Source of the DNA: Halobacillus litoralis | GTDB lineage: Bacteria; Bacillota; Bacilli; Bacillales; Halobacillaceae | Direction of reading: 5' to 3' | Length of the DNA: 64,000 nucleotides | Assembly (NCBI RefSeq): GCF_020524085.2 | Contig: NZ_CP129016.1 | Span: 2,102,001 to 2,166,000, forward strand | In this document: piece by piece, positions 19,257-54,733 of the stretch | Layout of the letters: every line of letters begins with the position of its first letter | How positions within the stretch are numbered: position 1 is the first letter of the stretch | Notes under the pieces: model-generated | Databases searched by the model: none | Seen by the model: only the letters and a program-made list of their open reading frames with translations | Told to the model about the DNA's origin: nothing | Position numbers and translations under genes: made by a program

Positions 19257-21603
19257 ATGAATCAACGCATCCTTCATGTACTAGAATTTAAAAAAAATCA
19301 TAGAACAATTGAACGAGCAAGCAGCCTCTTCCTTAGGGAAAGAAAAAACGGCGGCTTTGAAACCATCTTCTGACTTGGAAGAGGTTCGCCATTTGCAAAT
19401 GGAAACAGATGAAGCCGGGCAAGTGCTGCGCTTGAAAGGCCATGTCCCACTTGGCGGCATTTTCGATATTAAGCCAAGCTTGAAGCGGACCACAATAGGG
19501 GGGACGCTGAGCGCATTAGAATGCCTGGATGTCGCTAGTACCATTTATGGTGGAAGACAACTGAAGCGTTTCATTGAAGATATGGAAGAACCCGAAATGC
19601 CGATTTTAAGAGACATGGTTTCTAAAATCGCTCCATTGAGGGAATTGGAGAGTGAAATCAGAAACTGTATCGATGATCATGGAGGAGTCATGGATGGGGC
19701 TTCTGAGAAATTGAGATCCATCCGTTCGAAAATCCGTACCTATGAGAGTCGGGTAAGGGACAAAATGGAGTCTTTTACAAAATCTAAATCCAAAATGCTT
19801 TCCGATGCAATTGTCACTATAAGAAATGAACGTTACGTTCTTCCAGTTAAACAAGAATACCGGGGATCTATAGGCGGGATTGTTCATGATCAATCATCTT
19901 CTGGGGCGACATTGTTCATAGAACCCCAAACGGTTGTTGATTTGAATAACCAACTGCAGGAAGCCCGAGTCCAAGAAAAAAATGAAATTGAAAAAATCTT
20001 GAAAGAACTTTCCGATGCGATTGCTGAGAACCATGAACCATTATATGAAAACGTGAATGTCTTAGGGCATATGGACTTTATGTTTGCCAGAGCGAAGTTG
20101 GGTAAGCAGATGAGAGCCGCTATGCCTAAGATGAATGACGAAGGCCGCATTGATATGAAGCAAGCGAGACACCCGCTAATACCTGAAGATGAAGTCGTGC
20201 CGAATGACATCGAAATAGGCACGGAATACACATCCATTGTTATTACTGGTCCGAACACAGGGGGAAAAACAGTTACTCTTAAACTCGTAGGGTTGTGCAC
20301 TTTGATGGCACAGTCCGGATTACAGGTCCCTGCATTGGATGGATGTGAGATGGCTGTATTTAAGGAAGTTTATGCTGACATTGGCGATGAACAGTCCATT
20401 GAACAAAGTTTATCTACTTTTTCTTCCCATATGACCAATATCGTAGACATTTTGGATAAAGTAGATGATCAGTCTTTAGTTTTGTTTGATGAACTTGGTG
20501 CTGGAACGGATCCGCAGGAAGGGGCAGCTCTTGCGATGTCCATACTGGATGAAGTCGTCAACCGGAAAGCGCGTGTTATCGCAACCACTCACTATCCTGA
20601 ATTAAAAGCTTATGGCTACAATCGTCCCGATGTTATCAATGCTTCAGTCGAATTTGATATTCAAACGCTTAAACCGACCTACCGCTTGTTGATAGGCGTT
20701 CTAGGACGAAGTAATGCGTTTGAGATTTCCAGGCGCTTAGGTTTAAGAGAATCTGTGATTGAATCCGCAAAGGGTCATATTGGAGTAGATTCTCAAAGTG
20801 TTGAAAATATGATTGCTTCATTAGAGGAGTCGAAGCGGGGAGCAGAGCAGGATTATGAAGAAGCAGAACGATTGCTTGCAGAAGCGGAAGAGCTACGGAA
20901 TGAATTGAAACAAAAATGGGACCAATTCGAAGATCAGCGTGAAAAGTTATATGAGAAGGCTGAACAAAAAGCAGAAAAAGCCATTCGACAGGCGAGAGAA
21001 GAAGCGGAAACAATCGTTGGCGAAATCCGGAACATGAAATCACAGGCACAAATGAAAGAGCATGAATGGATTGAAGCTCGCAAGATGTTTGATGAAGCAC
21101 AGCCTGAACTGGCGAAGAAAAAAACGAAAGCATCTCCAGCACCTAAGAAAGAGTCGAAAGAATTGAACCCTGGAGATGAAGTGAAACTACTGACCCTCAA
21201 CCAGCAAGGAACCATTGTGGAACAAACAGGGAAGAATGAATACCAAGTGCAGGTTGGGGTAATGAAAGTGAAAGCCAAACGCAAAGAAATTGAATTCGTT
21301 AAGGCCAAGCAACCATATAAGGAAAAGCCCATGGCGACAGTCAAAGGTAAGGACTTCCATGTGAAAACAGAACTCGATTTACGTGGCGAACGATATGAAG
21401 ATGCGTTGAACCGTTTAGAGAAATATGTTGATGACGCTCTCTTAGCAGGCTACCCACGAGTATCTATCATTCACGGAAAGGGAACAGGCGCACTTCGGAC
21501 AGCCGTTCAAAACTTTGCAAAAAACCACCGCAGCATCTCCAGTCAACGGGCAGGAGGCATGAATGAGGGTGGAAGTGGAGTGACCGTACTTGAGTTTCGA
21601 TAA
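19257..21603 (+). CDS. mutS2: Endonuclease/recombination suppressor MutS2, with a frameshift at codon 14 and a Pro-to-Leu change
   Basis: Reads [13 protein letters not shown] from ATG 19257, then needs a shift at a run of eight A (19290-19297; seven would keep frame) to continue [17 protein letters not shown] and on to residue about 781. MutS2 binds branched DNA and stalled ribosomes. The core, Walker A GPNTGGKT, signature [16 protein letters not shown], a long coiled coil, a KOW-like segment and the C-terminal Smr nuclease domain ([21 protein letters not shown]) are all intact. The near-invariant GVPGRSNAF segment reads GVLGRSNAF because of CTA at 20701. TTG 19309 could act as a start but would lose 17 conserved residues. 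Confidence 0.92.
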
Positions 21604-21626
21604 TTCGTTAAAAAGGGAGCGGAGGA

Positions 21627-22034
21627 ATGAGTAATTTTTGGGAATACACGTTAGTGGAAACCGCCGCTCGTTACAGTGTGGTTGTGCTGTGTTTAGTTCT
21701 TTTTATGGCGATTTTTGAAATCGTCACTTCTTATAATAACTGGGAAGAGATCAAAAAGGGCAACATTGCTGTAGCGATGGCTACCGGGGGAAAACTATTT
21801 GGAATTGCAAACATCTTTCGTTTTTCGATTGAACATAATGACTCACTCACCCAGACAATGGGATGGGGTTTGTATGGATTTGCTCTTCTCCTTTGCGGGT
21901 ATTTCATTTTCGAATTTTTGACCCCATCTTTTAAGATTGATGAGGAAATTACAAATGATAACCGTGCTGTAGGATTTATTTCCTTAGTCATTTCTATCGG
22001 GCTTTCGTATGTAATTGGAGCGAATATCATTTAA
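21627..22034 (+). CDS. yshE: DUF350 membrane protein YshE
   Basis: 135 residues with four membrane segments in two DUF350-type repeats (LVLFMAIFEIVTSYNNWEEIKKGNIAVAMATGGKLFGIA; then FEFLTPSFKIDEEITNDNRAVGFISLVISIGLSY). The function is unknown. B. subtilis yshE also follows mutS2. The ribosome binding site GGGAGCGGAGG is 5 bases before the ATG. Probably in one message with mutS2 and the small gene that follows. Confidence 0.85.
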   Translation: MSNFWEYTLVETAARYSVVVLCLVLFMAIFEIVTSYNNWEEIKKGNIAVAMATGGKLFGIANIFRFSIEHNDSLTQTMGWGLYGFALLLCGYFIFEFLTPSFKIDEEITNDNRAVGFISLVISIGLSYVIGANII

Positions 22035-22045
22035 GGAGAGAGACA

Positions 22046-22123
22046 GTGGAAACCTTAGCCAAAATTTTAATGGTCGTTGCCGCGGTATTTCTCATCGTAG
22101 GCATCCTGTTTTTTATCATATAA
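22046..22123 (+). CDS. Possible 25-residue single-pass membrane peptide
   Basis: GTG 22046 follows AAGGAGAG (22033-22040) by 5 bases, 11 bases after the yshE stop. It encodes METLAKILMVVAAVFLIVG followed by six more residues, so it is almost entirely one hydrophobic segment. I do not recognise a family. Spacing, ribosome binding site and an immediate downstream terminator make it a credible small gene; a chance reading frame of this length is the alternative. Confidence 0.55.
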   Translation: METLAKILMVVAAVFLIVGILFFII

Positions 22124-22141
22124 GTATAGGATTCATCATCA

Positions 22142-22177
22142 AACAAGAAGCTCGATAATAATCGGGCTTTTTGTTTT
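22142..22177 (+). terminator. Terminator after mutS2-yshE
   Basis: AACAAGAAGCTCGAT / ATCGGGCTTTTTGTT imperfect stem with a short AATA loop, then TTTTT. Confidence 0.8.
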
Positions 22178-22204
22178 TTATGTTAATGTAGTAATAGTTA
22201 TTAA

Positions 22205-22410
22205 AGTATATGGCAGGTTTCTTAAAGACTCAGTTTCGAGACTTTCCGGGGTTCGTTGCCCGAGTTGAGGGCTAGTCGTGTCTACCAGGGCGATTCCGCA
22301 TTTGAACACTTTCCTGTGGGGGAGTGGCGAGCTATTCCCCGCAGCTCCCTTCCACTCAACAAAAGTCTCGAAACTGAGTCTTACAATCGGGAGCTTATGT
22401 GCAAGAATGG
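22205..22410 (+). repeat. Terminal-inverted-repeat element, copy C
   Basis: About 205 bases. Inverted ends AAGACTCAGTTTCGAGACTTT (written here as AAGACTCAGTTTCGAGAC plus TTT, 22217-22237) and the matching right end near 22361-22381. Outer left flank TATATGGCAGG, right flank CAATCGGGAGCTTA. The left arm carries GGGGTTCGTTGCCCGAG; the right arm carries GAGCTATTCCCCGCAG and CACTCAACAAAAG. Same orientation as copy A. It occupies most of the 22124-22516 gap. Confidence 0.85.
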
Positions 22411-22452
22411 GGTTGGTTTTTAGGGTAATATTTTCAATTTTTTAAATAATAA

Positions 22453-22481
22453 TTCAAATATGAGCCTTTAGTCGTTATAAT
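22453..22481 (+). promoter_or_regulatory. Sigma-A promoter of lcfA
   Basis: TTCAAA at 22453-22458, 17-base spacer, TATAAT at 22476-22481. No FadR-type palindrome is visible next to it. Confidence 0.55.
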
Positions 22482-22516
22482 AGGAGAGAAGACAATTATT
22501 AGGGAGGTCTGTCAAA

Positions 22517-24220
22517 ATGAGTGATTTTCAACGTCCATGGCACAAGTTGTACCCACCAGAAGTCCCTGTCACCATTGATTACAAAGAGCAACCACTCCAT
22601 GATTACCTTAAAGAAAGTGCTGAAGTTTACGGAGAAAAGAAAGCGCTTTATTTTATGGGCAAGGAGTTGGAATATAAAGAAATTTATGAACAGGCCCAAG
22701 CATTAGCAAGCTATTTACAGGACCTTGGGTTAGAAAAAGGCGATCGTGTTTCCATTATGTTGCCGAACTGTCCTCAATCCGTCATCTCCTATTATGGAGT
22801 CCTTATGGCTGGAGGAATCGTTGTGCAGACGAACCCGCTTTATATGGAAAGGGAATTGGAGTATCAAATGAAAGATTCTGGAGCTAAGATGATCATTTGT
22901 CTTGATATCCTTTATCCGAAGGCTGCCAATATCAAACCTGATACCCCTCTTGAACACATCATCGTGACAGGTATTAAAGATTACCTTCCTTTCCCAAAAA
23001 ACAAAATCTATCCTTTTATCCAAAAACGCCAGTATCAAGTGCTCGTTAAACCGGAACAATCAACGGATACCCATCTGTGGACCCATATCTTGAAAAGCGC
23101 AAGTGGAAATGTTGAAGAAGTAGAGATTGATCCTAAAGAGGATCTTGCTTTATTACAATACACCGGGGGAACGACCGGATTTCCAAAAGGTGTGATGCTT
23201 ACTCACTACAATCTGATTGTGAATACGCAGATGTCGAAAAAATGGTTGTACAAATGCAAAGATGGTGAAGAAACCGTTCTCGCTATTTTACCGTTCTTCC
23301 ATGTATATGGAATGACTTCGGTTATGAACCTGTCTGTTATGATGGGGAACAAAATGATTCTCATGCCGAAGTTTGAACCCGAAGATGTTTTGAAAGTAAT
23401 CGAAAAACAAAAACCGACATTATTCCCTGGAGCACCTACCATTTATATTGCATTATTGAACCACCCGAACTTGAAGAAATATGACCTTTCTTCTATTGAA
23501 GCGTGTATTAGCGGTTCGGCGCCATTGCCGGTCGAAGTACAAGAACGTTTCGAGGCAGTGACAGGTGGACGGCTTGTTGAAGGGTATGGGTTGACCGAAA
23601 CCTCTCCAGTTACCCATTCCAACCTTGTGTGGGGACAGCGTATGAGTGGAAGTATCGGTGTACCATGGCCGGATACCGACGCGAAGATCTATAAGATGGA
23701 TGCTGATGAAGAGGCTGAGAACGGAGAAATCGGAGAAATCGTGGTGAAAGGTCCTCAAGTGATGAGGGGTTACTGGAACAGACCAGAAGAAACCGCCCAA
23801 GTTCTCAGTGAAGATGGCTGGTTCCGAACAGGAGATATGGGGTATATGGACGATGCGGGTTACTTCTATATCGTCGATCGAAAAAAAGATATGATTATTG
23901 CAGGTGGGTATAACATCTATCCTCGAGAGGTGGAGGAAGTCCTTTATGAGCATTCGGAGATTCAAGAAGCTGTCGTTGTAGGAGTTCCAGATCCTTATCG
24001 GGGAGAAACCGTAAAAGCCTTCATCGTTAAAAAACAGGGAAGCGAAATTACAGAAGATGAACTGAATGAATATTGTCGTAAAAATATTGCTTCTTATAAA
24101 GTCCCAAGGTTGTATGAATTCAGAGATGAGCTACCAAAAACAGCAGTCGGTAAAATCTTAAGGAGGACTTTAATCGATGAAGAAAAACGTAAGTATGAGG
24201 AATCTGAGAGTATTCAATAA
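22517..24220 (+). CDS. lcfA: Long-chain fatty-acid-CoA ligase
   Basis: 567 residues. Activates fatty acids to acyl-CoA through an acyl-adenylate. The AMP-binding P-loop YTGGTTGFPKGVMLTH lies at about 216-231, the second motif GYGLTETSP near 356, the DxxxRTGD-like WFRTGDMGYMD near 435, and the C-terminal lysine segment PKTAVGKILRR near 548. The ribosome binding site GGGAGG is 9 bases before the ATG. First gene of the lcfA-fadR-fadB-etfB-etfA cluster for beta-oxidation, as in B. subtilis. Confidence 0.95.
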   Translation: MSDFQRPWHKLYPPEVPVTIDYKEQPLHDYLKESAEVYGEKKALYFMGKELEYKEIYEQAQALASYLQDLGLEKGDRVSIMLPNCPQSVISYYGVLMAGGIVVQTNPLYMERELEYQMKDSGAKMIICLDILYPKAANIKPDTPLEHIIVTGIKDYLPFPKNKIYPFIQKRQYQVLVKPEQSTDTHLWTHILKSASGNVEEVEIDPKEDLALLQYTGGTTGFPKGVMLTHYNLIVNTQMSKKWLYKCKDGEETVLAILPFFHVYGMTSVMNLSVMMGNKMILMPKFEPEDVLKVIEKQKPTLFPGAPTIYIALLNHPNLKKYDLSSIEACISGSAPLPVEVQERFEAVTGGRLVEGYGLTETSPVTHSNLVWGQRMSGSIGVPWPDTDAKIYKMDADEEAENGEIGEIVVKGPQVMRGYWNRPEETAQVLSEDGWFRTGDMGYMDDAGYFYIVDRKKDMIIAGGYNIYPREVEEVLYEHSEIQEAVVVGVPDPYRGETVKAFIVKKQGSEITEDELNEYCRKNIASYKVPRLYEFRDELPKTAVGKILRRTLIDEEKRKYEESESIQ

Positions 24221-24235
24221 ACTCAAAAAAGAAAG

Positions 24236-24264
24236 TTGACAGAATATTTCTTTGCTTGTAGAAT
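24236..24264 (+). promoter_or_regulatory. Sigma-A promoter of fadR-fadB-etfBA
   Basis: TTGACA at 24236-24241, 17-base spacer, TAGAAT at 24259-24264. The FadR operator begins 6 bases downstream, overlapping the expected start of transcription. Confidence 0.85.
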
Positions 24265-24270
24265 AATAGA

Positions 24271-24288
24271 TGAATGATGATTCATTCA
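24271..24288 (+). promoter_or_regulatory. FadR operator
   Basis: TGAATGATGATTCATTCA matches the B. subtilis FadR box (TGAATGA-N4-TCATTCA) at every fixed position. It lies at about +1 of the promoter, where bound FadR would block transcription of fadR-fadB-etfBA until long-chain acyl-CoA releases it. Confidence 0.93.
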
Positions 24289-24321
24289 TTTTTCAGTTCG
24301 CAATAGCAAGGAGATATACCA

Positions 24322-24912
24322 TTGAAGAAAAATAAACCGAAATTCAAACAAATCATTGATGCAGCTGTCGAAGTCATTGCTGAAAATGGCTACCACTCTT
24401 CACAAGTTTCCAAGATAGCAAAAAAAGCAGGAGTGGCAGATGGAACCATCTATCTTTATTTCAAAAACAAGGAAGATATCCTTGTATCATTGTTTCAAGA
24501 AAAAATGGGGCAATTCATAGAAAAAATTGAGCAGGAAACAACCTCTAAGCAGTCAGCGGAACAAAAACTTTTGACTTTAATTCAAACACATTTTGAACAG
24601 CTGGCTGCCGATCACCACCTGGCGATTGTGACACAGTTAGAATTGCGCCAATCCAATAAAGAGTTGAGGCAAAAAATCAACCATGTATTGAAGCGCTATT
24701 TGAATGTCATTGATCAAATTGTTGAAGAAGGTGTCGAGGAGGAGTTGTTCCGTAGTGGCCTGGATCGCCGTCTTGTACGTCAAATGATTTTTGGGACGAT
24801 GGATGAGACGGTGACCAACTGGGTTATGAAAGAGCAACGGTATAACATAGAAGAACAGGCCAAAGAAGTCCATAGCTTAATTGTGAATGGATTAGCCCGT
24901 CATGATAAGTGA
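24322..24912 (+). CDS. fadR: TetR-family fatty-acid degradation repressor FadR (YsiA)
   Basis: 196 residues from TTG 24322, which follows AAGGAGAT by 8 bases. N-terminal helix-turn-helix (about 20-50, GYHSSQVSKIAKKAGVADGTIYLYFKNKEDIL) and an all-helical ligand domain that binds acyl-CoA in this family. Represses beta-oxidation genes. The perfect operator upstream and fadB downstream give autoregulation and confirm the name. Confidence 0.94.
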   Translation: MKKNKPKFKQIIDAAVEVIAENGYHSSQVSKIAKKAGVADGTIYLYFKNKEDILVSLFQEKMGQFIEKIEQETTSKQSAEQKLLTLIQTHFEQLAADHHLAIVTQLELRQSNKELRQKINHVLKRYLNVIDQIVEEGVEEELFRSGLDRRLVRQMIFGTMDETVTNWVMKEQRYNIEEQAKEVHSLIVNGLARHDK

Positions 24913-24928
24913 GAAAGGTGATGATGTT

Positions 24929-25702
24929 TTGTCGACTTTAACTTCACAGGTAAAAGGGAATGTAGCAGAAATCACGATTCAGAGCCCTCCTGCAAACGCA
25001 CTGTCCAGCTCCATCCTTCAGGATCTTTCCAAGGAACTGGATCAGATTGAAAGCAATCCTTCCGTAAAAGCCATCCTTCTTAAAGGGGAAGGACGCTTCT
25101 TCTCTGCAGGAGCAGACATCAAAGAATTTACTTCTCTCCAAGGAGCGGATGATTATAAGGGGTTGGCAGCCAAGGGGCAGCAATTGTTTAGCAGAATTGA
25201 AAATTTCCACATCCCCGTGATTGCTGCTATTCATGGAGCAGCACTAGGGGGAGGTCTCGAGCTAGCCATGTCCTGCCACATCCGCTATGTAGCAGATGAT
25301 GCAAAGTTAGGGTTGCCTGAATTGAATCTTGGAATTATCCCTGGCTTTGCAGGGACGCAAAGGTTGCCAAGGTACGTCGGCACAGCCAAAGCTTATGAAA
25401 TGATATTGACAGGTGTGCCGATTAGTGGCGAAGAAGCTGCCCGATTAGGTCTAGCTAATCAAAGTTTTTCAAGTGAGGAACTTTTTGAGAAAGCAGAGCA
25501 ACTGGCTCAAACGATTTCACAGAAAAGCGGGCCGACCATTCATCACATCATGAAGTTGATTCCGTTCGCCCATACTCCTCAGTTTGAAGCAGGGAACCAT
25601 GCGGAAGCGGACGCCTTCGGAGAGGTGTTTGGGAATGAAGATGCTAAAGAAGGCATCCAAGCATTCATTGAAAAAAGAAAACCAGCATTCAAAAACCAAT
25701 AG
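24929..25702 (+). CDS. fadB: Enoyl-CoA hydratase FadB (YsiB)
   Basis: 257 residues from TTG 24929. Crotonase fold enzyme that hydrates trans-2-enoyl-CoA in beta-oxidation. Oxyanion-hole and catalytic segments are present: FSAGADIKEFTSL (about 58-70), AAIHGAALGGGLELAMSCH (about 99-117) and GLPELNLGIIPGFAGTQRL with the catalytic Glu (about 129-147). The TTG lies 8 bases after AAAGGTG; an in-frame ATG 24902 overlaps the end of fadR and is less likely. Ends in a true TAG stop, evidence that amber terminates here. Confidence 0.93.
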   Translation: MSTLTSQVKGNVAEITIQSPPANALSSSILQDLSKELDQIESNPSVKAILLKGEGRFFSAGADIKEFTSLQGADDYKGLAAKGQQLFSRIENFHIPVIAAIHGAALGGGLELAMSCHIRYVADDAKLGLPELNLGIIPGFAGTQRLPRYVGTAKAYEMILTGVPISGEEAARLGLANQSFSSEELFEKAEQLAQTISQKSGPTIHHIMKLIPFAHTPQFEAGNHAEADAFGEVFGNEDAKEGIQAFIEKRKPAFKNQ

Positions 25703-25720
25703 TCCAGGAGGTATATAAAC

Positions 25721-26494
25721 ATGAATATTTACGTTTTGTTGAAAAGAACGTTCGACACAGAGGAAAAAATCTCTGTAAGTAATGGAGTGATTGCTGACGA
25801 TGGGGCAGAGTACATCATCAACCCATACGATGAATATGCGGTGGAAGAAGCGATTAATCTGCGTGACGAGCACGGCGGTGAAGTTACAGTCGTGACCATT
25901 GGAGAAGAGGAAGCAGAGAAACAGCTGCGGACAGCTCTGGCTATGGGCGCGGATAAAGCGGTTCTTATTAACACGGAAGATGATCTTGAAGAAGGTGACC
26001 AGTTTACAACGGTTAAAATTCTTGAAGCATTCTTTGAAGATAAAGAAGTCGACATTATTCTTGGAGGTAATGTAGCCATTGATGAAGCAAGTGGTCAAGT
26101 AGGTCCTCGTCTTGCCGAACGTCTGGATATGCCATGTGTAACGACAATCACGGATATTAAAATTGACGGCACGACAGTAAACATTGAGCGGGACGTCGAA
26201 GGGGATGTCGAAAAGGTAGAAACGACACTTCCTGTGTTGGTTACATGTCAGCAAGGCTTGAATGAGCCGAGATATCCGTCTTTGCTAGGAATTATGAAGG
26301 CGAAGAAGAAGCCGCTTGATGAGCTTGAAATCGATGATCTCGATCTGGATGAAGATGACGTAGAACCAAAAACAAAAACAACTGAAATTTACCTTCCACC
26401 TGAAAAAGAAGCAGGTAAAGTCCTCGAAGGAGAAGTCGATGACCAAGTAAAAGAACTTGTATCATTATTAAAAACAGAAGCGAAAGTACTGTAA
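25721..26494 (+). CDS. etfB: Electron transfer flavoprotein beta subunit, with an unusual Leu at 189
   Basis: 257 residues, matching B. subtilis EtfB. With EtfA it carries electrons from acyl-CoA dehydrogenases to the menaquinone pool and binds AMP. The N-terminus MNIYVLLKRTFDTEEKIS and the signature region EGDVEKVETTLPVLVTCQQGLNEPRYPS are normal. The following segment reads SLLGIMKAKKKP where the family has SLPGIMKAKKKP; the codon is CTA in the context CTAGG (26285-26289). The ribosome binding site AGGAGG precedes the ATG. Co-transcribed with fadB and etfA. Confidence 0.95.
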   Translation: MNIYVLLKRTFDTEEKISVSNGVIADDGAEYIINPYDEYAVEEAINLRDEHGGEVTVVTIGEEEAEKQLRTALAMGADKAVLINTEDDLEEGDQFTTVKILEAFFEDKEVDIILGGNVAIDEASGQVGPRLAERLDMPCVTTITDIKIDGTTVNIERDVEGDVEKVETTLPVLVTCQQGLNEPRYPSLLGIMKAKKKPLDELEIDDLDLDEDDVEPKTKTTEIYLPPEKEAGKVLEGEVDDQVKELVSLLKTEAKVL

Positions 26495-26519
26495 ATAGAC
26501 AAGGGAAAGGAGAATCTTT

Positions 26520-27500
26520 ATGAGTAAAAAAGTGTTGGTGATCGGGGAAGCTAGAGAAGGATCTCTTCGTAATGTTACATTTGAAGCCATTGCAGCAGCT
26601 AATATCGTCAGTGATGGGGGAGAAGTTGTTGGTGTCCTTTGTGGAGATGGCGATTTAAATGAAATGGGCTAGGAGATGGTTTACTATGGAGCTTCCAAAG
26701 TAATCACTGTTTCAAACCCAGAATTGAAAACGTATACATCTGATGGTTATGGTCAAGCGGTATATCAAGTGATCCAGGATGAATCACCAGAAGGAATTAT
26801 CATGGGTCACACAGCGATTGGTAAAGATTTGACTCCTAAACTGGCCAGTAAGCTAGAATCCGGACTTATCTCAGACGCTACTGAAGTTGTGGCTGAGGGT
26901 GGAGATGTTGTTTTCACACGTCCGATCTACTCCGGAAAAGCTTTTGAAAAGAAAGTGGTTACTGAGGGATTGGTATTTGCTACTATTCGCCCAAATAACA
27001 TTCCACCACTTACAAGAGATGAATCTTTAACAGGAAGCGTATCCGGAAAAGATGTGGAGATTTCAAATATCCGTACGATTATAAAGGATGTGCTTCGCAA
27101 GTCTTCGGATGGTGTCGATCTTTCGGAAGCAAAAGTGATCGTCGCCGGTGGTCGTGGCGTGAAGAGCGCGGAAGGTTTTGAACCACTTGAGAAACTTGCC
27201 GAAGTTCTTGGTGGTACAGTTGGCGCATCACGTGGAGCTTGTGATGCTGGATACTGTGACTACTCTTTGCAAATTGGTCAGACAGGTAAGGTTGTAACGC
27301 CAGACTTGTACATTGCATGTGGTATTTCTGGAGCTATTCAACACTTAGCTGGAATGTCGAACTCTAAAGTCATTGTGGCAATTAACAAGGATCCGGAAGC
27401 GAACATTTTCAATGTTGCTGATTACGGAATTGTCGGTGATTTGTTTGATGTTGTTCCTAAATTAATTGAAGAAATTAAAGAAATGAAAGTAAACGCCTAA
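26520..27500 (+). CDS. etfA: Electron transfer flavoprotein alpha subunit, interrupted by in-frame TAG at codon 51
   Basis: 326 codons from ATG 26520 (ribosome binding site AAAGGAG) in one frame, but codon 51 is TAG (26670-26672) in EMG*EMVYYGA. The rest is a complete EtfA: GHTAIGKDLTPKLASKL, FTRPIYSGKAFEKK, and the C-terminal FAD domain GGRGVKSAEGFEPLEKLA, GASRGACDAGY, QIGQTGKVVTPDLYIACG. Loss of EtfA would stop beta-oxidation electron flow. The likely original codon is CAG (Gln), giving CCAGG. There is a reinitiation-like ATG 26676 but no ribosome binding site suited to it. See findings. Confidence 0.93.
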
Positions 27501-27502
27501 CC

Positions 27503-27948: not shown

Positions 27949-27962
27949 TGAATGAACTTACT

Positions 27963-31396: not shown

Positions 31397-33148
31397 ATGA
31401 CAAACCGTAATATTGTTGTTGTCGGTGGTGGTTTAGCCGGCCTAATGGCAACAATTAAAGCAGCAGAACAAGGGGTTCACGTGGACTTGCTTTCCATTGT
31501 TCCTGTTAAGCGTTCTCACTCTGTATGTGCCCAAGGTGGAATAAATGGGGCAGTTAATACGAAAGGGGAAGGCGATTCCCCATGGGAACACTTTGACGAT
31601 ACAGTTTATGGGGGCGATTTCTTAGCGAACCAGCCTCCAGTAAAAGCAATGTGTGATGCAGCACCGGGAATTATTCACTTGCTTGATCGTATGGGCGTTA
31701 TGTTCAACCGTACTCCGGAGGGACTGCTTGATTTCCGTCGCTTCGGTGGAACACAACACCACCGTACAGCATTCGCCGGAGCAACGACTGGACAACAACT
31801 TCTTTACGCTCTGGATGAGCAAGTGCGTCGTCACGAAGTAAATGGTCTAGTAACAAAATATGAAAACTGGGAATTCCTATCCGCCATTGTCGACGACAAT
31901 GGCGTAGGCCGAGGCATTATTGGTCAGAACCTTAGTGACCACGAAATTAAAGCCTTCCCAGCAGATGCTGTTATCATGGCAACAGGCGGACCTGGAATCA
32001 TTTTCGGTAAATCAACAAACTCAGTCATCAACACGGGGTCTGCAGCAGGTTCCCTTTATCAGCAGGGTGTAAATTACGCAAATGGTGAATTTATACAAAT
32101 TCACCCTACAGCGATTCATGGGGATGACAAACTACGTCTCATGAGTGAATCCGCTCGTGGTGAAGGTGGACGCGTATGGACATATAAAGATGGAGAACCT
32201 TGGTATTTCTTGGAAGAAAAATACCCGGCCTATGGAAACCTCGTTCCACGTGATATTGCGACACGGGAAATCTTTGATGTGTGTGTCAATCAAAAGCTTG
32301 GGATCAATGGTGAAAACATGGTTTATCTTGACCTTTCCCATAAAGATCCGAAAGAATTGGACGTTAAGCTTGGCGGAATCATTGAAATCTATGAAAAATT
32401 CGTAGGGGATGATCCGCGTAAAGTACCGATGAAGATTTTCCCTGCGGTTCACTATTCTATGGGTGGAATGTGGGTTGATTATGACCAAATGACCAATATC
32501 CCAGGAATTTTCGCTGCCGGAGAATGTGATTATACTCAACACGGCGGGAACAGACTTGGGGCCAACTCACTTCTTTCTTCCATTTTTGGTGGAATGGTAG
32601 CTGGACCGAATGCTGTTAAATATACTGATGGATTAGAAACACTGGCGGATGATATGACATCCAAGCTGTTCGAAGAGAAAGTAAAAGAAGAACAGGATAA
32701 ATTCGAGGAAATTATGAAGATGGATGGCGATGAAAATGCATACCAAATTCATAAAGAGCTTGGAGAATGGATGACTGATAACGTAACAGTTGTTCGGGAA
32801 AACGAAAAGCTTCTTAAAACAGATGAAAAAATCGTGGAATTGATGGATCGTTACAAACGAATTAACATCAATGACACTTCTCGCTGGAGCAACTAGGGAG
32901 CGATGTTCACGCGTCAGCTTTGGAACATGCTTCAATTGGCTCGTGTTATTACTCAAGGTGCTTACAATCGTAATGAAAGCCGTGGCGCACACTATAAGCC
33001 TGAGTTCCCTGAACGTAATGACGAAGAGTGGCTGAAGACAACGGTTGCCAGCTTTGATAAGGAAAACAATAAGCCGGTATTCCGTTATGACGAAGTCGAT
33101 ACATCCTTAATCGAGCCTCGTAAACGTGATTACTCGAAAAGTAAATAA
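31397..33148 (+). CDS. sdhA: Succinate dehydrogenase flavoprotein subunit, interrupted by in-frame TAG at codon 500
   Basis: 583 codons in one frame (586 residues in B. subtilis), but codon 500 is TAG (32894-32896) in SRWSN*GAMFTRQL, where the family has Gln (SNQG). Everything else is intact: FAD motif GGGLAGLMA, the histidyl-FAD region around SHSVCAQGGINGA, active-site HHRTAFAGATTG and GGNRLGANSLL, and the C-terminus RGAHYKPEFPERNDEEW. Truncation there would remove 83 residues that contact SdhB. CAG to TAG in the context CCAGGG is the simplest origin; see findings. Confidence 0.95.
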
Positions 33149-45928: not shown

Positions 45929-45944
45929 ATGAACAGCTCACGGC

Positions 45945-46074: not shown

Positions 46075-47361
46075 ATGTCAGCAAAATGGGAAAAGCAAGA
46101 AGGCAATCAGGGGACTTTGACAGTAGAAGTACCTGCAAGTGAGTTCGACAAAGCACTTGACCAAGCCTTCAAAAAAGTAGTTCAACAGGTACAAGTACCT
46201 GGTTTCCGTAAAGGTAAAGTACCTCGTAAACTTTTCGAACAGCGCTTCGGAGTGGAGTCACTTTATCAGGATGCCCTTGATATTGTACTTCCACAAGCTT
46301 ATACAGAAGCTGTTGAAGAGACAGGAATCGAACCTGTTGATCGTCCAGAAGTAGACGTGAAACAAATCGAAAAAGGTCAAGACCTTGTATTCACAGCTGA
46401 AGTTACTGTGAAGCCAGAAGTTAAGCTTGGCGACTACAAAGGCCTTGTTGTAGAAGAGCAGGATACTGAAGTATCAGATGAAGATGTTGAAAACGAACTG
46501 AAGCAGATGCAAGAGCGTCAAGCTGAGCTAGTTGTTAAAGAAGATGCAGCTGTTGAAAATGGCGACACAGTCGTTATGGATTTCGAAGGTTTCGTTGATG
46601 GCGAAGCATTCGAAGGTGGACAGGCAGACAACTACTCCCTTGAAGTTGGTTCTGGCTCCTTCATCCCAGGTTTTGAAGAACAGCTGGTTGGTAAAAAAGC
46701 AGGAGAAGAAACTGACGTTGAAGTGACTTTCCCTGAAGAATACCATGCGGAAGATCTAGCTGGTAAATCGGCTACTTTCAAAGTGAAAATTCATGAAGTA
46801 AAAGGAAAAGAACTTCCTGAGCTTGATGATGAGTTCGCGAAAGATGTCGACGAAGAGGTTGAGTCTCTTGAAGAACTGAAGACAAAAACTCGTGAGCGTC
46901 TAGAAGAGCAGAAGAAAACAGATGCTGAAAACAGCAAGCGTGACACGCTTGTAACGCAAGCTTCCGAAAATGCAGAAGTTGAAATTCCTGACGCTATGGT
47001 GGACACAGAGCTTGACCGTATGGTTCAAGAATTCGAACAACGTCTACAAATGCAAGGGATGACTAAAGACATGTACTTCCAATTCACTGGTCAAGATGAA
47101 GATGCCCTTCGTGAGCAAATGAAAGAAGATGCAGCGAAGCGTGTGAAGACGAACTTGACTCTTGAAGCGATTGCAGAGGCAGAAAATGTTGAAGCTTCTG
47201 AAGAAGATGTGAATGCTGAACTTGAGAACATGGCTTCCATGTATCAAACAGACGTTGCTCAACTGACGCAAATGCTTGGCGGGAACACTGACATGATCAA
47301 AGAAGATCTTAAAGTCCGCAAAGCCATTGACGTTCTAGTTGCAAATTCTAAAGCTGAATAA
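46075..47361 (+). CDS. tig: Trigger factor
   Basis: 428 residues (424 in B. subtilis). Ribosome-bound chaperone and prolyl isomerase. Ribosome-binding N-terminal domain with the signature [19 protein letters not shown] (about 39-57), central FKBP domain (about 160-245, [20 protein letters not shown]), and helical C-terminal chaperone arms. ATG 46075 follows GGAGGG by 8 bases; the in-frame start at 46048 is rejected for that reason. Very acidic overall. Confidence 0.97.
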
Positions 47362-47367
47362 TAAACT

Positions 47368-47403
47368 AAGAAGACAAGGTGCATGATCGTACCTTGTCTT
47401 CTC
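47368..47403 (+). terminator. Terminator after tig
   Basis: AAGAAGACAAGGT / ACCTTGTCTTCT stem with loop GCATGATCGT. Confidence 0.8.
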
Positions 47404-47695
47404 ATATATTTCTATATTATAGAGTATAGAGGTAGAGATTAATGGGGAAGATAGTTGATACTTCTCCAACAGTTTACATACAATAGTACTGGTGCTCCAT
47501 CGTTTGACTTATCTGCCGTTGAATTACATAATGAGGATGGTGCAGGAAAAGTTGCGCACACCTCTGAAAAGGTATTGCTTTTTTGTTTGAAGTTAATCTG
47601 ATATGATGGGCAAAAGAAGTGAAGTGGAAACGTAAACGTCGTATCATGAAACTTCAGTCGCAACGATTGCGTCATTATAATAAGGGGTGAAACGA
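47404..47695. other. tig-clpX intergenic region with a protein-like reading frame
   Basis: TTG 47455 to TGA 47601 (48 residues) reads FTYNSTGAPSFDLSAVELHN and continues NEDGAGKVAHTSEK, which looks protein-like but has no ribosome binding site and no known family. Possibly a gene remnant. The clpX ribosome binding site AAGGGGTG is at 47683-47690. A TATGAT near 47602 may be the clpX -10; no clear -35. Confidence 0.3.
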
Positions 47696-48973
47696 ATGTT
47701 TAAATTTAACGATGAAAAAGGACAGTTGAAATGTTCTTTCTGCGGTAAAAGTCAGGAACAAGTCCGTAAACTCGTAGCAGGACCTGGCGTATATATATGT
47801 GATGAATGTATTGAACTTTGTACGGAAATCGTTGAAGAAGAGCTGGGTAATGAAGAAGAAGTGGAATTCAAAGAGGTACCGAAACCTCAAGAAATCCGCG
47901 AAATCCTCAGTGATTATGTTATTGGTCAGGATCAAGCTAAAAAGAACCTGTCCGTAGCGGTATATAACCACTACAAACGTATCAATGCAGGTGTTAAAAA
48001 TGATGATGTAGAACTTGCGAAAAGTAACATCCTCATGCTTGGACCTACAGGTAGCGGTAAAACTCTACTTGCTCAAACATTGGCCCGTATTCTAAATGTG
48101 CCATTTGCAATTGCTGATGCTACTTCCTTAACAGAAGCCGGTTACGTTGGCGAAGACGTTGAAAACATTCTGTTGAAGTTGATTCAAGCAGCAGACTATG
48201 ATGTGGAAAAAGCAGAAAAAGGAATCATTTATATCGATGAAATCGATAAAGTGGCTCGTAAATCAGAGAACCCTTCCATTACAAGAGATGTGTCTGGTGA
48301 AGGAGTGCAGCAAGCGCTTCTGAAAATCCTTGAAGGTACTCAGGCGAGTGTGCCTCCACAAGGTGGACGTAAACATCCTCATCAAGAGTTCATCCAAATC
48401 GATACAACCAATGTATTGTTTATCGTTGGGGGAGCCTTTGATGGAATCGACCAGATCATTAAGCGTCGTCTAGGACGTAAAGTGATCGGCTTCGGTTCTG
48501 AACAAGCAGCTGATGAAGCTGAGAAGAAAGAATTGCTTACAAAAGTGCTGCCAGAAGACTTGTTAAGCTATGGCTTGATTCCAGAATTCATCGGTCGTCT
48601 TCCAGTCATCGGCAGCCTCGAGCAGCTTGATGAAGATGCGCTTGTAGAAATCCTAACAAAACCGAAGAATGCGCTTGTGAAGCAGTATCAAAAACTATTC
48701 CAAATTGACCATGTTGAGTTGGAAATGGAAGAAGATGCGCTTCGGGAAATCGCACGCTTAGCTATAGAACGTAAGACAGGGGCTCGTGGATTGCGCTCGA
48801 TCATTGAAGGAATCATGCTGGATGTCATGTATGAACTTCCTTCCCGTGATGACATTGAGAAATGTATCATTACGAAAGAGACAGTCACTGCTAAAAATGG
48901 ACGTCCTAAGCTGGTTTTGACTGACGGCACTGTTGAAGATGATAACAAACAATCTCCTAAAGAGAGTGCGTAA
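47696..48973 (+). CDS. clpX: ATP-dependent Clp protease ATP-binding subunit ClpX
   Basis: 425 residues (420 in B. subtilis). AAA+ unfoldase that feeds ClpP. N-terminal zinc-binding domain with C-x2-C pairs ([10 protein letters not shown] and [10 protein letters not shown]), Walker A GPTGSGKT near 118-125, Walker [11 protein letters not shown], ClpP-docking IGF loop in [10 protein letters not shown], and sensor 2 [13 protein letters not shown] 47696 follows AAGGGGTG. In B. subtilis lonB follows; here lonA is next. Confidence 0.98.
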
Positions 48974-48992
48974 ACCTTAAGGAATAAATCCA

Positions 48993-49036
48993 AGAAGCCG
49001 TGCTACGAACATGATGTAGCACGGCTTCTGTTTTAT
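48993..49036 (+). terminator. Terminator after clpX
   Basis: AGAAGCCGTGCTAC / GTAGCACGGCTTCT stem with loop GAACATGAT, then TGTTTTAT. Confidence 0.88.
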
Positions 49037-49229
49037 AAAATTGACAAATGGCTACATAAGCATGAAAGGCTGGTTTCTGTTCATAATAAAGTATTAGAGG
49101 AGTGAGCCCCTTGACAGTAGATGGTTAGGGGATTTCGGTGATGGCATCATTTGGTGCCGTTTCGTTTACTTTCCAAGTACATTTATATATGATAAAAATA
49201 CGTAGTTGCAATAATCGGAGGTGCAAGAA

Positions 49230-51560
49230 ATGGCGGATAAACATAGAAAAAAGATACCTCTACTTCCTCTCAGAGGGTTGCTTGTGTACCCTTCAATGGT
49301 CCTCCACTTGGATGTGGGGCGTGAAAAGTCGGTACAAGCACTGGAGCAATCCATGATGGATGATAATGAAATTTTTCTCGTGTCACAAAAAGAAGTGAAT
49401 ATTGATGAACCTTCAAACGATGACCTTTATGAGATTGGAACGGTTGCAAGAGTTAAACAAATGGTTAAATTGCCGAACGGCACCAATCGAGTCCTTGTAG
49501 AAGGTTTATATAGAGCTCATGTTGAAGAATTAGTCGATGATGAGGACTTTTATCACGCGAACATCTCAAAAATTGAGGATGAGCATGTAGGAGAAAATGA
49601 GGAAGAAGCTCTCATGCGCACGCTTTTGGATCAATTCGAAAAGTTCGTCAAAGTTTCTAAAAAAGTAAGTCAGGAAACCTTTAATACCGTGTCCGACATC
49701 GATGAACCAAGCCATATGGCAGACATGATCGCTTCCCATTTGCCTGTGAAGCTAAAAGAAAAGCAGTCGATTCTGGAAACAGCGAATGTAAAAGAGCGGC
49801 TTCAAAAGCTTGTCGACATGATTGGGAATGAACGTGAAGTTCTGCAAATTGAACAAAAGATTGGAAAAAGGGTAAAAAAATCAATGGAAAAAACGCAAAA
49901 AGAATATTATTTGCGTGAACAGATGAAAGCGATCCAAAATGAACTTGGGGATAAAGATGGAAAATCAGGTGAGGTGGCTCAGCTTAAAGAAAAAATAGAG
50001 CAGGCCAATATGCCTGAACGAGTGGAAGAAATCGCTTATAAAGAGCTTGGAAGATATGAAAAAGTTCCACAAAGCTCAGCGGAAAGTTCCGTCATCCGTA
50101 ATTACATTGAATGGCTCGTAGCCTTGCCATGGTCGAATGAGACGGAAGATAATCTGGATGTGAACCGTGCTGAGAAGATCTTAGACGAAGACCATTATGG
50201 TTTGGAGAAGGTCAAGGAGCGCGTTCTTGAATATTTAGCGGTTCAAAGACTGACTCAAACGATCAAGGGGCCTATATTGTGTCTGGCTGGACCTCCAGGA
50301 GTGGGAAAAACATCCCTTGCTAAGTCTATCGCTCGTTCCATTAATCGAAAATTTGTAAGAATCTCTTTGGGTGGTATTCGAGATGAAGCTGAAATCCGTG
50401 GCCATCGCAGAACTTATATTGGGGCTATGCCCGGACGTATTATTCAGGGAATGAAACGTGCAGAGACCGTGAACCCTGTATTTTTACTTGATGAAATTGA
50501 TAAAATGGCAAGTGATTTCAGAGGAGATCCCTCTTCAGCTATGTTGGAAGTCCTTGACCCGGAACAAAACGGTACGTTCAGTGATCACTTCATTGAAGAG
50601 AACTACGATCTATCAAAGGTCATGTTTGTCGCTACAGCCAATAATATTTCAAACATACCGGGGCCATTGCGTGACAGAATGGAGATTATCACCATTGCTG
50701 GATATACGGAAGTTGAGAAAGTTCATATTGCTAAAGAGCATCTGCTTCCTAAGCAAGTCAAGGAAAATGGCTTGAAGAAAGGCCAGCTTCAATTACGTGA
50801 TGATGCGCTCTTGAAATTGATCCGACGGTACACTAGAGAAGCGGGTGTACGGGGGTTGGAACGTGAATTAGCAAGCCTATGCAGAAAAGCTGCCAAGATC
50901 ATCGTTTCTGGTGAAAAACAACGGGTGGTTGTGACGGAAAAACAACTGGAAGACCTTCTTGGCCGCCCGAAATTCCGTTATGGACGTGCTGAACTGGAAG
51001 ATCAGATTGGGGCAGCTACAGGCCTTGCTTATACGACAGCAGGTGGAGATACATTATCAATTGAAGTTTCAATTTACCCTGTAAAAGGAAACCTCACATT
51101 AACAGGGAAATTAGGAGATGTGATGAAGGAATCTGCACAAGCGGCTTTCAGCTATATTCGTTCTAGAGCGAATGAACTGAACATCGACCCTGAGTTTGTG
51201 GAAAAGAACGATATCCATATTCACGTACCTGAAGGCGCAACACCAAAAGATGGCCCTTCTGCCGGCATCACGATGGCGACAGCCCTTGTATCGGCACTGA
51301 CAGGCCGCCCTGTTCGTAAAGAAGTGGGCATGACTGGTGAAATTACTCTTCGAGGACGCGTTTTGCCTATCGGCGGTTTGAAAGAAAAATCCTTGAGTGC
51401 CCACCGTGCAGGATTAACAAAAATCATCATTCCAGATCAAAACGAAAAGGATTTGGAAGATATTCCTGACAGCATCAAGGAAGGTTTGACTTTTGTTCCT
51501 GTGAAGCATTTGGATGAAGTTTTAGAACAAGCATTAACGGAGGCAGTACATGAAAGTTAA
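49230..51560 (+). CDS. lonA: ATP-dependent protease Lon (LonA)
   Basis: 776 residues (774 in B. subtilis). Cytoplasmic AAA+ protease for damaged and regulatory proteins. N-terminal substrate domain ([25 protein letters not shown]), Walker [10 protein letters not shown] (about 355-363), Walker [11 protein letters not shown], and C-terminal serine-lysine protease domain with [15 protein letters not shown] (Ser about 677) and [14 protein letters not shown] (Lys). ATG 49230 follows GGAGG by 8 bases; GTG 49221 is part of that site. engB overlaps its end by 11 bases. Confidence 0.98.
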
Positions 51561-52137
51561 CTCGGCTGACATCGTCATCAGTGCGGCGAGCAAAAAGCAG
51601 TACCCAAAAACACCGATTCCTGAAATTGCACTGGCAGGAAGATCGAATGTTGGTAAATCTTCATTTATTAATCGGATGATCCAACGTAAAAATTTAGCAA
51701 GAACTTCATCAAAACCTGGGAAAACGCAAACATTAAATTTCTACATCATTAATGATAAATTCCACTTCGTCGATGTGCCTGGTTACGGGTATGCGAAAGT
51801 TTCTAAAAAGGAACGAGCGAAGTGGGGAGCGATGATGGAAGAATATTTTGCAGAGCGTGATCAGTTAAAAGCGACAGCTTTAATTATCGACATCCGTCAT
51901 AAACCAACAGAAGATGATCAATTGATGTATGATTATTTGAAGCACTTTGATCTCCCTGTTATGGTGATCGCTACAAAGCTTGACAAAATCAAAAAGGGTC
52001 AACGAAAGAAACAACTGAAGATGATTTTTGATGTCTTGGAAATGGAAGAGGAAGATGCATTGATTCCCTTCTCATCCGAAACCGGTGAAGGTAAGGATGT
52101 GGCATGGAGAACCATGCTTTCCCATTTGAATTTATAA
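51550..52137 (+). CDS. engB: Ribosome biogenesis GTPase EngB (YsxC)
   Basis: 195 residues, as in B. subtilis YsxC. GTPase needed for 50S assembly. G1 GRSNVGKSS (about 31-39), G2 Thr in [14 protein letters not shown]3 [11 protein letters not shown]4 TKLDKI and G5 FSSETGEG. Start ATG 51550 overlaps the last four codons of lonA, with GGAGGCAGT inside lonA as ribosome binding site; this lonA-ysxC overlap is conserved in Bacillus. Confidence 0.97.
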
Positions 52138-52143
52138 TGACAG

Positions 52144-52178
52144 AACCACTTCTCTACACAGGGAAGTGGTTTTTTTAG
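52144..52178 (+). terminator. Terminator after engB
   Basis: AACCACTTC / GAAGTGGTT stem with loop TCTACACAGG, then a run of Ts. Confidence 0.9.
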
Positions 52179-52395
52179 TGTGTATGTATATTCATGCAAA
52201 TTTATATTATATTAGAGCAAATTCATGCATTTATACGAAAAGTCTGGCATTTTGCAGGTCATGTCTATTAACAGCAGTATTTAGTAGATTTTGGACTATG
52301 TTTAATTTTGGGAATTGTTAGATAACTAGATATAATTTAAAGTGTCGCTATTATTACAGAGAAATGACAAATTGATGAAGGGGAGAATTTTGGTT

Positions 52396-53229
52396 ATGAA
52401 AAAATATTTACTAATGATCACCCTAAGCATCTTCATGATTTTCACACTGGCTGCATGCGGTGGAAGTGAGGATGAAGGAGAAACTTCAGGGGATACAAAC
52501 GAAAATGATTCTAGTAGTGAATCATCAGAAGAAACAGCATATGACCTTGTTGAGGATGGAAAGTTCACGTTTGCTGCTTCTGGTGAATTCCGACCATTCA
52601 GTATGACAGATGCAAGCGGGGAAATGACAGGTTTTGATATTGATGTGGCAAATGCCATTGCTGAGGAATTGGGCTTGGAACCAAACCCGCAAAAGCAGAA
52701 GTTCGCAAGTATCGTAGAAGGTGTGAAGACAGGCCGTTTTGACGCGGCAGTAGCAAGTCACACCATTACGGAAGAAAGACAAAAGGAAGTGGATTTCTCT
52801 ACTCCTTACTATTATTCTGGAGCGCAAATTTTCACGCGTCCTGACAGTGATGTGGAAACATTAGAAGATTTAGAAGGAATGGAAATCGCCATTTCTAAAG
52901 GTTCTACTTATAGCACGTATGCGGAAGAAGTAACAGAGAATATCAAAACATATGACAGTGATGTTGTAGCATTACAATCGCTAGCAAAAGGTCGTCATGA
53001 TGCTGTAATCACAGATTTCTTGACCGGGAAGGAAGCTTCAGGAGAAGGTCTTGAAATTGAAGCGAAAGAAATGATTGAGCGTAGTGAACAGGCGGTTGCT
53101 GTTGCAAAAGAAAACGAAGCCTTACTTGAAGAAATCAATGCAGCTCTAGAAACACTTCGTGAAGATGGAACACTTGCTGAAATCAGTAAAGAATACTTTG
53201 GTGAAGACATTACGACTCTGCCGGAGTAA
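52396..53229 (+). CDS. Polar amino-acid ABC transporter, substrate-binding lipoprotein
   Basis: 277 residues. Lipoprotein signal MKKYLLMITLSIFMIFTL then lipobox LAAC (Cys about 21), an acidic Ser/Glu linker (about 25-50), and a family 3 periplasmic-binding fold with FDIDVANAIAEELGL, FDAAVASHTITEERQKEVDFS and the ligand-clamp GSTYSTYAEE. Probably binds a polar or sulfur amino acid; the substrate is not deducible. ATG 52396 follows GGGGAGA. Heads a three-gene transporter that B. subtilis lacks between ysxC and hemA. Confidence 0.9.
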   Translation: MKKYLLMITLSIFMIFTLAACGGSEDEGETSGDTNENDSSSESSEETAYDLVEDGKFTFAASGEFRPFSMTDASGEMTGFDIDVANAIAEELGLEPNPQKQKFASIVEGVKTGRFDAAVASHTITEERQKEVDFSTPYYYSGAQIFTRPDSDVETLEDLEGMEIAISKGSTYSTYAEEVTENIKTYDSDVVALQSLAKGRHDAVITDFLTGKEASGEGLEIEAKEMIERSEQAVAVAKENEALLEEINAALETLREDGTLAEISKEYFGEDITTLPE

Positions 53230-53256
53230 ACGCTCGTTTTTCAGTTGAAGACCGAA

Positions 53257-53294
53257 GTCAAAAAGAGTGCGCAATGAGCGTACTCTTTTTGACA
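53257..53294 (+). terminator. Intercistronic hairpin between binding protein and permease
   Basis: GTCAAAAAGAGTGCGC / GCGTACTCTTTTTGAC stem with loop AATGA, near perfect. Inside an operon it probably attenuates read-through or protects the upstream message, so that binding protein is made in excess. Confidence 0.8.
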
Positions 53295-53315
53295 TTATAG
53301 AGGAGTTGAAGTCAA

Positions 53316-53981
53316 TTGTATTTGTATTCTGCAAACTTTTGGACAGCACTTATAGATAGTCGAGGCATGTTTTTTGAAGCCGCTCAAATGACCTTGGCCC
53401 TTACTGCGGTCTCTATTTTAATTGCGATCGTCATCGGGTTAATGTTTGCTTTTATGAAGATATCCAAAATTAAGCCGTTGGAATGGATCGCGAATGTGTA
53501 CATTTATGTGGTAAGGGGAACCCCTCTCATTGTTCAAATCTTCGTGTTCTATTATGGACTGACAGAAGTGTGGATGATTAGTGGGTTCTGGTCTGTAGCC
53601 CTTGGACTTGCCTTCCACAATGGCGCCTATATTGCAGAGATTTTCCGTGGATCCATTCAATCCATTGGTAAAGGTCAGACAGAAGCTGGTCGTTCACTTG
53701 GAATGAGCGGTACCTTGACGATGCGTCGGATCATCCTGCCGCAGGCTTTTAGACGTGCATTGCCTCCGCTTGGCAATCAGTTTATTATTGGTTTGAAGGA
53801 TTCATCATTGGCAGCATTCATTGGTGTATCCGAAATATTTGCTGTAGCCACCACTCAAGGGGCCAATACATTCGACTATATGACCTGGTTGCTCGTAAGT
53901 GCCGTATGGTATTTGATTCTCGTATTCCTTCTGACACTCGTTGTCAGTGCAATTGAGAAGAAAATGGCTGCGAGTGACTAA
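53316..53981 (+). CDS. Polar amino-acid ABC transporter, permease
   Basis: 221 residues from TTG 53316 (GAGGAGTTG upstream). HisM/GlnP-type permease with about five membrane segments and the EAA loop EAGRSLGMSGTLTMRRIILPQ (about 128-148), the contact to the ATPase. Second gene of the transporter. Starts 22 bases after the intercistronic hairpin. Confidence 0.9.
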   Translation: MYLYSANFWTALIDSRGMFFEAAQMTLALTAVSILIAIVIGLMFAFMKISKIKPLEWIANVYIYVVRGTPLIVQIFVFYYGLTEVWMISGFWSVALGLAFHNGAYIAEIFRGSIQSIGKGQTEAGRSLGMSGTLTMRRIILPQAFRRALPPLGNQFIIGLKDSSLAAFIGVSEIFAVATTQGANTFDYMTWLLVSAVWYLILVFLLTLVVSAIEKKMAASD

Positions 53982-53998
53982 CAGAGGAGGAAAGACAA

Positions 53999-54733
53999 TT
54001 GTCAGAGCAAATGATTCGAGTAAATAAATTGAATAAATCGTTTGGGGATCTGCATGTACTCAAGGACATTGATTTTCACGTGGAAGAAAGTGAAGTGGTT
54101 GTACTCATCGGGGCCAGCGGGTCCGGAAAAAGTACCATGCTGCGCTGTTTGAACTTTTTAGAAATGAAGAACAGTGGGGAGCTCTTTATTAAAGGCGAAC
54201 AAATTGATCCTAAAAAAGATAATTTGAACAAAGTAAGACAACAAGTGGGGATGGTATTCCAACACTTTAACCTGTTCCCTCATATGACGGTATTAGGCAA
54301 CGTTATTGAAGCGCCTACCCAAGTCAAAGGAATCTCTAAAAGTCAGGCGAAAAAAGAAGGCTAGGAGCTTTTAGATAAAGTTGGACTTGGTGATAAGGCC
54401 AATGATTACCCATCAAGACTATCAGGTGGTCAGAAACAACGAGTTGCGATCGCCAGGGCTCTTGCAATGAAACCAGAAATCATGCTGTTTGATGAGCCTA
54501 CATCAGCACTCGACCCTGAACTGGTCGGAGAAGTTCTTGCTACTATGAAAGACCTTGCGAAAGAAGGAATGACAATGGTCGTGGTCACCCACGAAATGGG
54601 ATTCGCAAGAGAAGTTGCCGACCGCGTTGTTTATATGCATGATGGAAAAATCGTAGAGTCAGGAACTCCGAAAGATTTGTTCGAAAATCCACAAGAAGAA
54701 AGAACCCAAGCGTTTCTAAGCTCCATTTTATAA
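53999..54733 (+). CDS. Polar amino-acid ABC transporter ATPase, interrupted by in-frame TAG at codon 122
   Basis: 244 codons in one frame from TTG 53999 (GAGGAGG upstream). Walker A GASGSGKS (about 38-45), Q-loop VFQHFNLFP, signature [15 protein letters not shown], Walker [15 protein letters not shown] and the switch His in VVTHEMGF are all present. Codon 122 is TAG (54362-54364), in [13 protein letters not shown], between the Q-loop and the signature. A truncated product would be inactive. GGCTAGGAG suggests GGCCAGGAG (Gln) as the original; see findings. Confidence 0.92.

Follow-up and report, generated by a model that had tools for sequence, protein, structure and literature searches.

The window analysed here comprises 64,000 nucleotides (2,102,001-2,166,000) of a Halobacillus litoralis genome assembled in two contigs, 3.95 Mb in all, and lies on the main contig of 3.90 Mb. 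Within it mutS2, etfB, etfA, sdhA and a gene for a GlnQ-like ABC ATPase each carry the pentamer CTAGG on the plus strand, giving a leucine codon in the first two and an in-frame TAG in the last three. A sequence-only reading had seen in all five a C-to-T change within CCAGG, one form of the motif CCWGG (CCAGG or CCTGG), and had proposed that this motif is methylated and that its changes are due either to base-calling error or to deamination. The five pentamers are present (Table 1), as are the intact examples of CCAGG cited with them at 488, 29790 and 50295.

Conservation at the five sites was followed over 80 relative loci, counted wherever the site could be aligned. Proline, the residue expected at the two leucine codons, occupies the mutS2 site in all 73 loci and the etfB site in all 80. 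Glutamine had been expected at the three stops; this holds well for sdhA (51 of 53 loci, including 22 of 22 from Halobacillus) and for the ABC ATPase gene, with CAG in all 4 close relatives, and for etfA it holds in 17 of the 23 loci from Halobacillus and in only 21 of all 80. A stop at the three TAG sites was seen in no relative, over 80 loci at the etfA site, 53 at that of sdhA and 4 genomes at that of the ABC ATPase gene; the relatives examined have sense codons there and proline at the leucine sites. At the nucleotide level, the prediction of an original CCAGG is borne out at 20701 (3 of 3 aligned relatives) and 32893 (4 of 4), less so at 26285 and 54361 (2 of 4 each) and least at 26669 (1 of 4). 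Since the relatives are not uniformly CCAGG, the first C is partly taken from the genome under study itself. CTAGG as such is not over-represented in the window, with 26 occurrences against 59.5 expected by shuffling, so that raw counts alone would have hidden an effect that is visible only against relatives. Within 20.8 kb the locus of Halobacillus litoralis SL-4 (L003) holds 10 CTAGG and 10 CCTAG; its sister loci L001, L002 and L004 have two and three.

The wider comparison covered 640 kb of the contig (G000:C1:2000001-2640000, G000 being the genome under study) and used as main relative genome G012, at 89% identity; in a mirror comparison G012 served as the test genome and the same counts were run the other way. 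The codon set comprised 137,098 codons with conserved surroundings, after codons without ungapped alignment, those five codons or fewer from a gene end and those with local amino-acid identity below 85% had been left out; single-base counts exclude 2,174 multi-base codon differences. Changes are called polarised where at least three relatives agree against the test genome. An unrestricted DNA comparison with one relative, giving 75 inner-position C>T and C>A changes (both strands) against 44 in the mirror, was abandoned; synonymous divergence swamps such a comparison, and the counts were therefore moved to nonsynonymous and polarised changes. A pentamer scan of all missense differences placed CCAGG third by p-value (54 versus 24), after CAGGA and CGTAG.

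Within the codon set, 13 of 20 single-base stops lie inside CCWGG (p = 8e-22), a motif that provides 554 of the 55,051 opportunities for a stop (1.0%); the stop share there is about 65 times the background, and the pentamer with the most stop hits is CCAGG. These 20 come from 25 listed stops, the other 5 having two differences and 3 of those 5 involving a CCWGG position. A further CCWGG stop at 2260747 lies outside the codon set, as does the etfB site at 26285. In the mirror comparison, 0 of 9 single-base stops of G012 fall in CCWGG (13/20 versus 0/9, Fisher p = 0.0012). Polarised nonsynonymous single-base changes behave similarly: 14 in CCWGG are specific to the genome under study and 1 to G012, versus 228 and 227 elsewhere (Fisher p = 0.0009). 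Where at least three relatives share a CCWGG site, the genome under study has it changed in 24 of 74 cases, in agreement with the earlier view that only a fraction of sites is affected, whereas the figure with G012 as test genome is 11 of 61; for seven other pentamers in the genome under study, 7-12% of conserved sites are changed. A preliminary comparison over 20 kb offered only 13 CCWGG sites on which four relatives agree, of which 8 are kept and the others read CTAGG (2), CCAAG (1), CCGGG (1) and CATGG (1).

The base changes themselves are mixed. With each event oriented so that the altered base is C, the 14 polarised events comprise CTAGG (5), CATGG (5), CAAGG (2) and changes of the outer C (2), that is, inner C>T in 5 and inner C>A in 7. 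None of the 14 changes W, and CTTGG arises at 0 of 62 opportunities. An enlarged set of 27 events, which adds two-difference codons and stops beyond the polarised region and so leans towards stop-making changes, comprises CTAGG (10), CATGG (8), CAAGG (2) and outer C (7). TAG at a glutamine codon of the relative accounts for 8 of the 20 single-base stops, and the stops in CCWGG include TGA and TAA at glycine, glutamate and tryptophan codons. Of the motif-specific C-to-T signature first described, the link to the motif thus stands and the "C-to-T" label is too narrow, an ascertainment effect, because a search for TAG stops shows only CCAGG changed to CTAGG.

Table 1. Coordinates of CCWGG events specific to the genome under study and of the restriction-modification pair; positions are those of the window unless a locus is named
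Feature	Position	Strand	Remarks
CTAGG in mutS2 (19309-21603; TIGR01069)	20701..20705	+	Leucine, proline in relatives; on the polarised list of CCWGG changes specific to this genome
CTAGG in etfB (25721-26494)	26285..26289	+	Leucine, proline in relatives
CTAGG in etfA	26669..26673	+	In-frame TAG at 26670, residue 51/326 of intact relative
CTAGG in sdhA	32893..32897	+	In-frame TAG at 32894, residue 500/583 of intact relative
CTAGG in GlnQ-like ABC ATPase gene	54361..54365	+	In-frame TAG at 54362, residue 122/244 of intact relative
CATGG in sdhA (second event), CCTGG in relatives	32117..32121	+	Histidine where 54/54 loci have proline; C>A type
Leucine-to-methionine codon in CCTGG, dnaI-like gene	1363..1365	+	Specific to this genome, polarised (G000:C1:2103363)
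Proline-to-histidine codon in CCTGG, aminopeptidase gene	9850..9852	+	Specific to this genome (G000:C1:2111850)
Leucine-to-methionine codon in CCTGG, gene for 783 amino acids	34811..34813	+	Specific to this genome (G000:C1:2136811)
Proline-to-histidine codon in CCTGG, same gene for 783 amino acids	35069..35071	+	Specific to this genome (G000:C1:2137069)
Glycine-to-valine codon, outer position of CCTGG, lon	51081..51083	+	Specific to this genome (G000:C1:2153081)
C5-methylase and UbaLAI/MvaI-like restriction enzyme	L081:1486-4097	convergent	Family and structure matches

The open reading frame (ORF) of 783 amino acids in Table 1 has no NCBIfam match at E <= 1e-30. Between genes, a short element at 22183-22408 of the window has pieces with numerous matches across this genome and others of Halobacillus, and looks like a member of a dispersed repeat family.

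Insertions and deletions occur at the motif as well. A script found 6 frame-breaking coding indels at CCWGG, of which 5 are gains and 1 a loss, and 1 further gain was found by eye; several genes, including lepA and gpr, are thrown out of frame by a C or CC added ahead of AGG, and a DNA polymerase IV gene has lost one C at CCWGG. One noncoding CCWGG indel leaves the motif present in the genome under study and absent in the relative. Homopolymer-run frameshifts are present alongside the CCWGG changes across the 640 kb. For coding runs of at least 5, the genome under study has the longer run in 23 cases and the shorter in 6 where both ORFs are open or only its own is broken, and the longer in 2 and the shorter in 4 where only that of G012 is broken. 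Among coding indels inside G012 ORFs of this region, extra bases in the genome under study predominate (39 longer, 14 shorter).

Some of the affected positions are ones at which a real change would hardly be expected. The glyS gene (glycyl-tRNA synthetase beta), the sole beta gene over the family cut-off, contains one internal TAA of the CCWGG class and is open in 6 of 6 relatives searched; no dimeric glycyl-tRNA synthetase over the family cut-off was found in the genome under study. Glycyl-tRNA synthetase is essential. Ribosomal RNA (rRNA) genes are affected too. The 790 loop of 16S holds a CCTGG, which is intact in 2 and altered in 2 of the 4 copies, while the loop pattern is intact in 7 copies of genome G014 and 7 of G016; one extra three-mismatch row for the 16S pattern in the genome under study and one in G016 were taken as chance. 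Conserved CCWGG sites in 16S and 23S together give 34 readable site-copies, of which 14 depart from the references at a site where a sister copy in this genome agrees with them; CCWGG and its neighbours make up 31 of 1,510 and 42 of 2,859 columns, respectively (one 16S copy present in two overlapping stretches was counted once, and one 23S copy, masked save 54 bases, was not counted). It would be most strange for real mutations to pick out CCWGG in single rRNA copies; the interruption of the sole glyS and the discordance among rRNA copies both argue against real mutation. One 16S copy (L187, G000:C1 near 800,900) also has differences outside CCWGG, for example before the CACCAGTGG stretch, for which the motif offers no explanation.

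A likely source of methylation at the motif is encoded on the same contig as the window, about 450 kb further downstream. There lies the one C5-methylase (PF00145) over the Pfam cut-off in the genome, convergent with a 405-residue ORF whose N-terminal part matches UbaLAI (5e-14) and whose C-terminal part matches R.MvaI (2e-9; PF15515, 2.2e-46), the closest named relatives being from Alkalicoccus (74%) and Oceanobacillus (69%). UbaLAI and MvaI recognise CCWGG. The Halobacillus enzyme resembles both (PDB 5o63, 2oa9) in its two parts, an MvaI_BcnI nuclease domain and an N-domain like that of UbaLAI, and in standing beside a cytosine methylase, and its specificity for CCWGG is presumed from these homologues. 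The methylase shares the PF00145 family and the presumed CCWGG target with the Dcm of E. coli, but differs from that system, in which Dcm is accompanied by Vsr repair, in that it belongs to a restriction-modification (R-M) pair and in that no Vsr was found in the genome (0 matches). Its phmmer match to 3lx6 and 3me5, both of which we take to be Dcm, is confined to query residues 6-204, the catalytic part, with no match to either over the Dcm recognition domain. By this measure it does not qualify as a Dcm orthologue. Methylation of CCWGG in the DNA used for sequencing is presumed and is well supported, if indirectly, by the homologues of the adjoining enzyme and the positions of the errors. 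As a short-read relative sharing the methylase, and so a CCWGG control, G003/G015 was rejected, its C5-methylase being only 38% identical over residues 5-211.

It is considered nearly certain that the five sites are consensus base-calling errors at presumably methylated CCWGG, most likely in a nanopore-only assembly, and not mutations. The R-M methylase would most likely convert the inner C of CCWGG to 5-methylcytosine. Sites so modified shift the nanopore signal, and a base-caller without training on them misreads it: the inner C would mostly be called T in CCAGG and A in CCTGG, with the outer C sometimes miscalled and a C sometimes inserted. Some of these miscalls would stay in the assembly as stops, missense changes and frameshifts where neither short reads nor methylation-aware polishing had removed them. 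The concentration in CCWGG, the mixture of base changes and indels, the hits at lethal or unlikely positions and the homopolymer indels are all what nanopore error would leave, and from these we infer a nanopore platform without short-read polishing.

This type of error has already been described. For a Klebsiella pneumoniae genome, Wick et al. (2019, PMC6591954) found some 70% of the consensus errors of the then-default nanopore base-callers to lie in the Dcm motifs CCAGG/CCTGG, homopolymer lengths coming second, and a 2025 study (PMC12016153) again linked typing errors peculiar to certain strains to base-calling affected by methylation. The pattern seen here, including the excess of longer homopolymers, fits this published class. 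Common to the errors here and to those of PMC6591954 are the concentration in CCAGG/CCTGG of native DNA and the second place of homopolymer lengths; the methylase in that case is the Dcm of Enterobacteriaceae, whereas the presumed cause here is an R-M methylase of Bacillaceae. The base-by-base spectrum (CTAGG, CATGG, insertion of C) was not found in those portions of the literature on such errors that were consulted.

Several observations weigh against base-calling error as a full account. Seven of the 20 single-base stops lie outside CCWGG, and CCSGG is altered at 4 of 14 conserved sites, near the proportion for CCWGG, though the numbers are small and 0 of 109 stop-prone CCSGG positions are hit. 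The unpolarised missense excess in CCWGG is modest (41 versus 23). The absence of CTTGG is not significant by itself (5/93 versus 0/62, Fisher p = 0.16). For the rRNA genes, the 790-loop pattern found no 16S in the four closest relatives, hence there is no 16S control there, and the two altered bases presumably vary among distant bacteria, to judge from degenerate primers; the telling point is therefore the disagreement among copies of one genome. Those copies also differ outside CCWGG, at 6 homopolymer and 23 other positions, of which some look natural, some are edge effects and some are unexplained. Of the 14 rRNA events at CCWGG, one is the length of the G run in CCTGGGG and two change W alone, a class not seen in genes.

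Unrepaired deamination of 5-methylcytosine at CCWGG, by which genes of a genome without Vsr would truly have mutated, is very unlikely. The C5-methylase, the lack of a Vsr match and the five original sites, all of them inner C>T, would suit it. It fails because C>A, which deamination cannot yield, occurs no less often than C>T among the polarised events, because the outer C is changed and C is inserted where inner C>T alone, alike on both strands, would be expected, and because the sole essential glyS and single rRNA copies are hit; CTTGG is missing at all 62 opportunities. Of the two origins first considered, base-calling error is thus strongly favoured. A related reading is given the same low standing: CCWGG would be truly hypermutable in the cell through the R-M system, producing C>T, C>A and C insertions, with rRNA copies and essential genes mosaic and the consensus recording real majority variants.

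Extremely improbable is an origin in restriction, in which the genome's own CCWGG enzyme would cut under-methylated sites and error-prone end joining would leave scars, or selection would remove CCWGG. The gene for a UbaLAI/MvaI-like enzyme is present, and more conserved CCWGG sites are changed here than with G012 as test genome. The cut falls at CC/WGG, however, and its fill-in should add W, whereas the coding insertions at CCWGG add C and no polarised event changes W; stops in glyS and sdhA would moreover be neither tolerated nor selected. Real pseudogenes of a decaying lineage, with the motif coincidental, are barely credible: several metabolic genes are interrupted and some of the homopolymer frameshifts could be real, but the excess of stops in the motif, with none in the comparison genome, and the hits in a sole essential gene and in rRNA copies are contrary to it. 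A reading of TAG as an amino acid, by stop-codon reassignment or suppression, would accommodate the TAG stops at glutamine codons and can be dismissed almost outright, given TGA and TAA in the same motif at glycine, glutamate and tryptophan codons and the missense changes, insertions and rRNA changes besides.

The observation that the sequence-only reading made at five sites is confirmed and is larger than first stated, and its interpretation is partly supported. With base-calling error at CCWGG as the origin, the seemingly broken sdhA, etfA, glyS, folD, recJ, malate dehydrogenase and other genes of this Halobacillus are probably whole, and studies of pseudogenes, gene loss or rRNA diversity based on this genome would be misled. 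The results also suggest that errors tied to a motif, when they turn up in conserved genes and in copies of rRNA, may betray the specificity of a methylase from the assembly alone; the errors found here suggest a system of the UbaLAI type.

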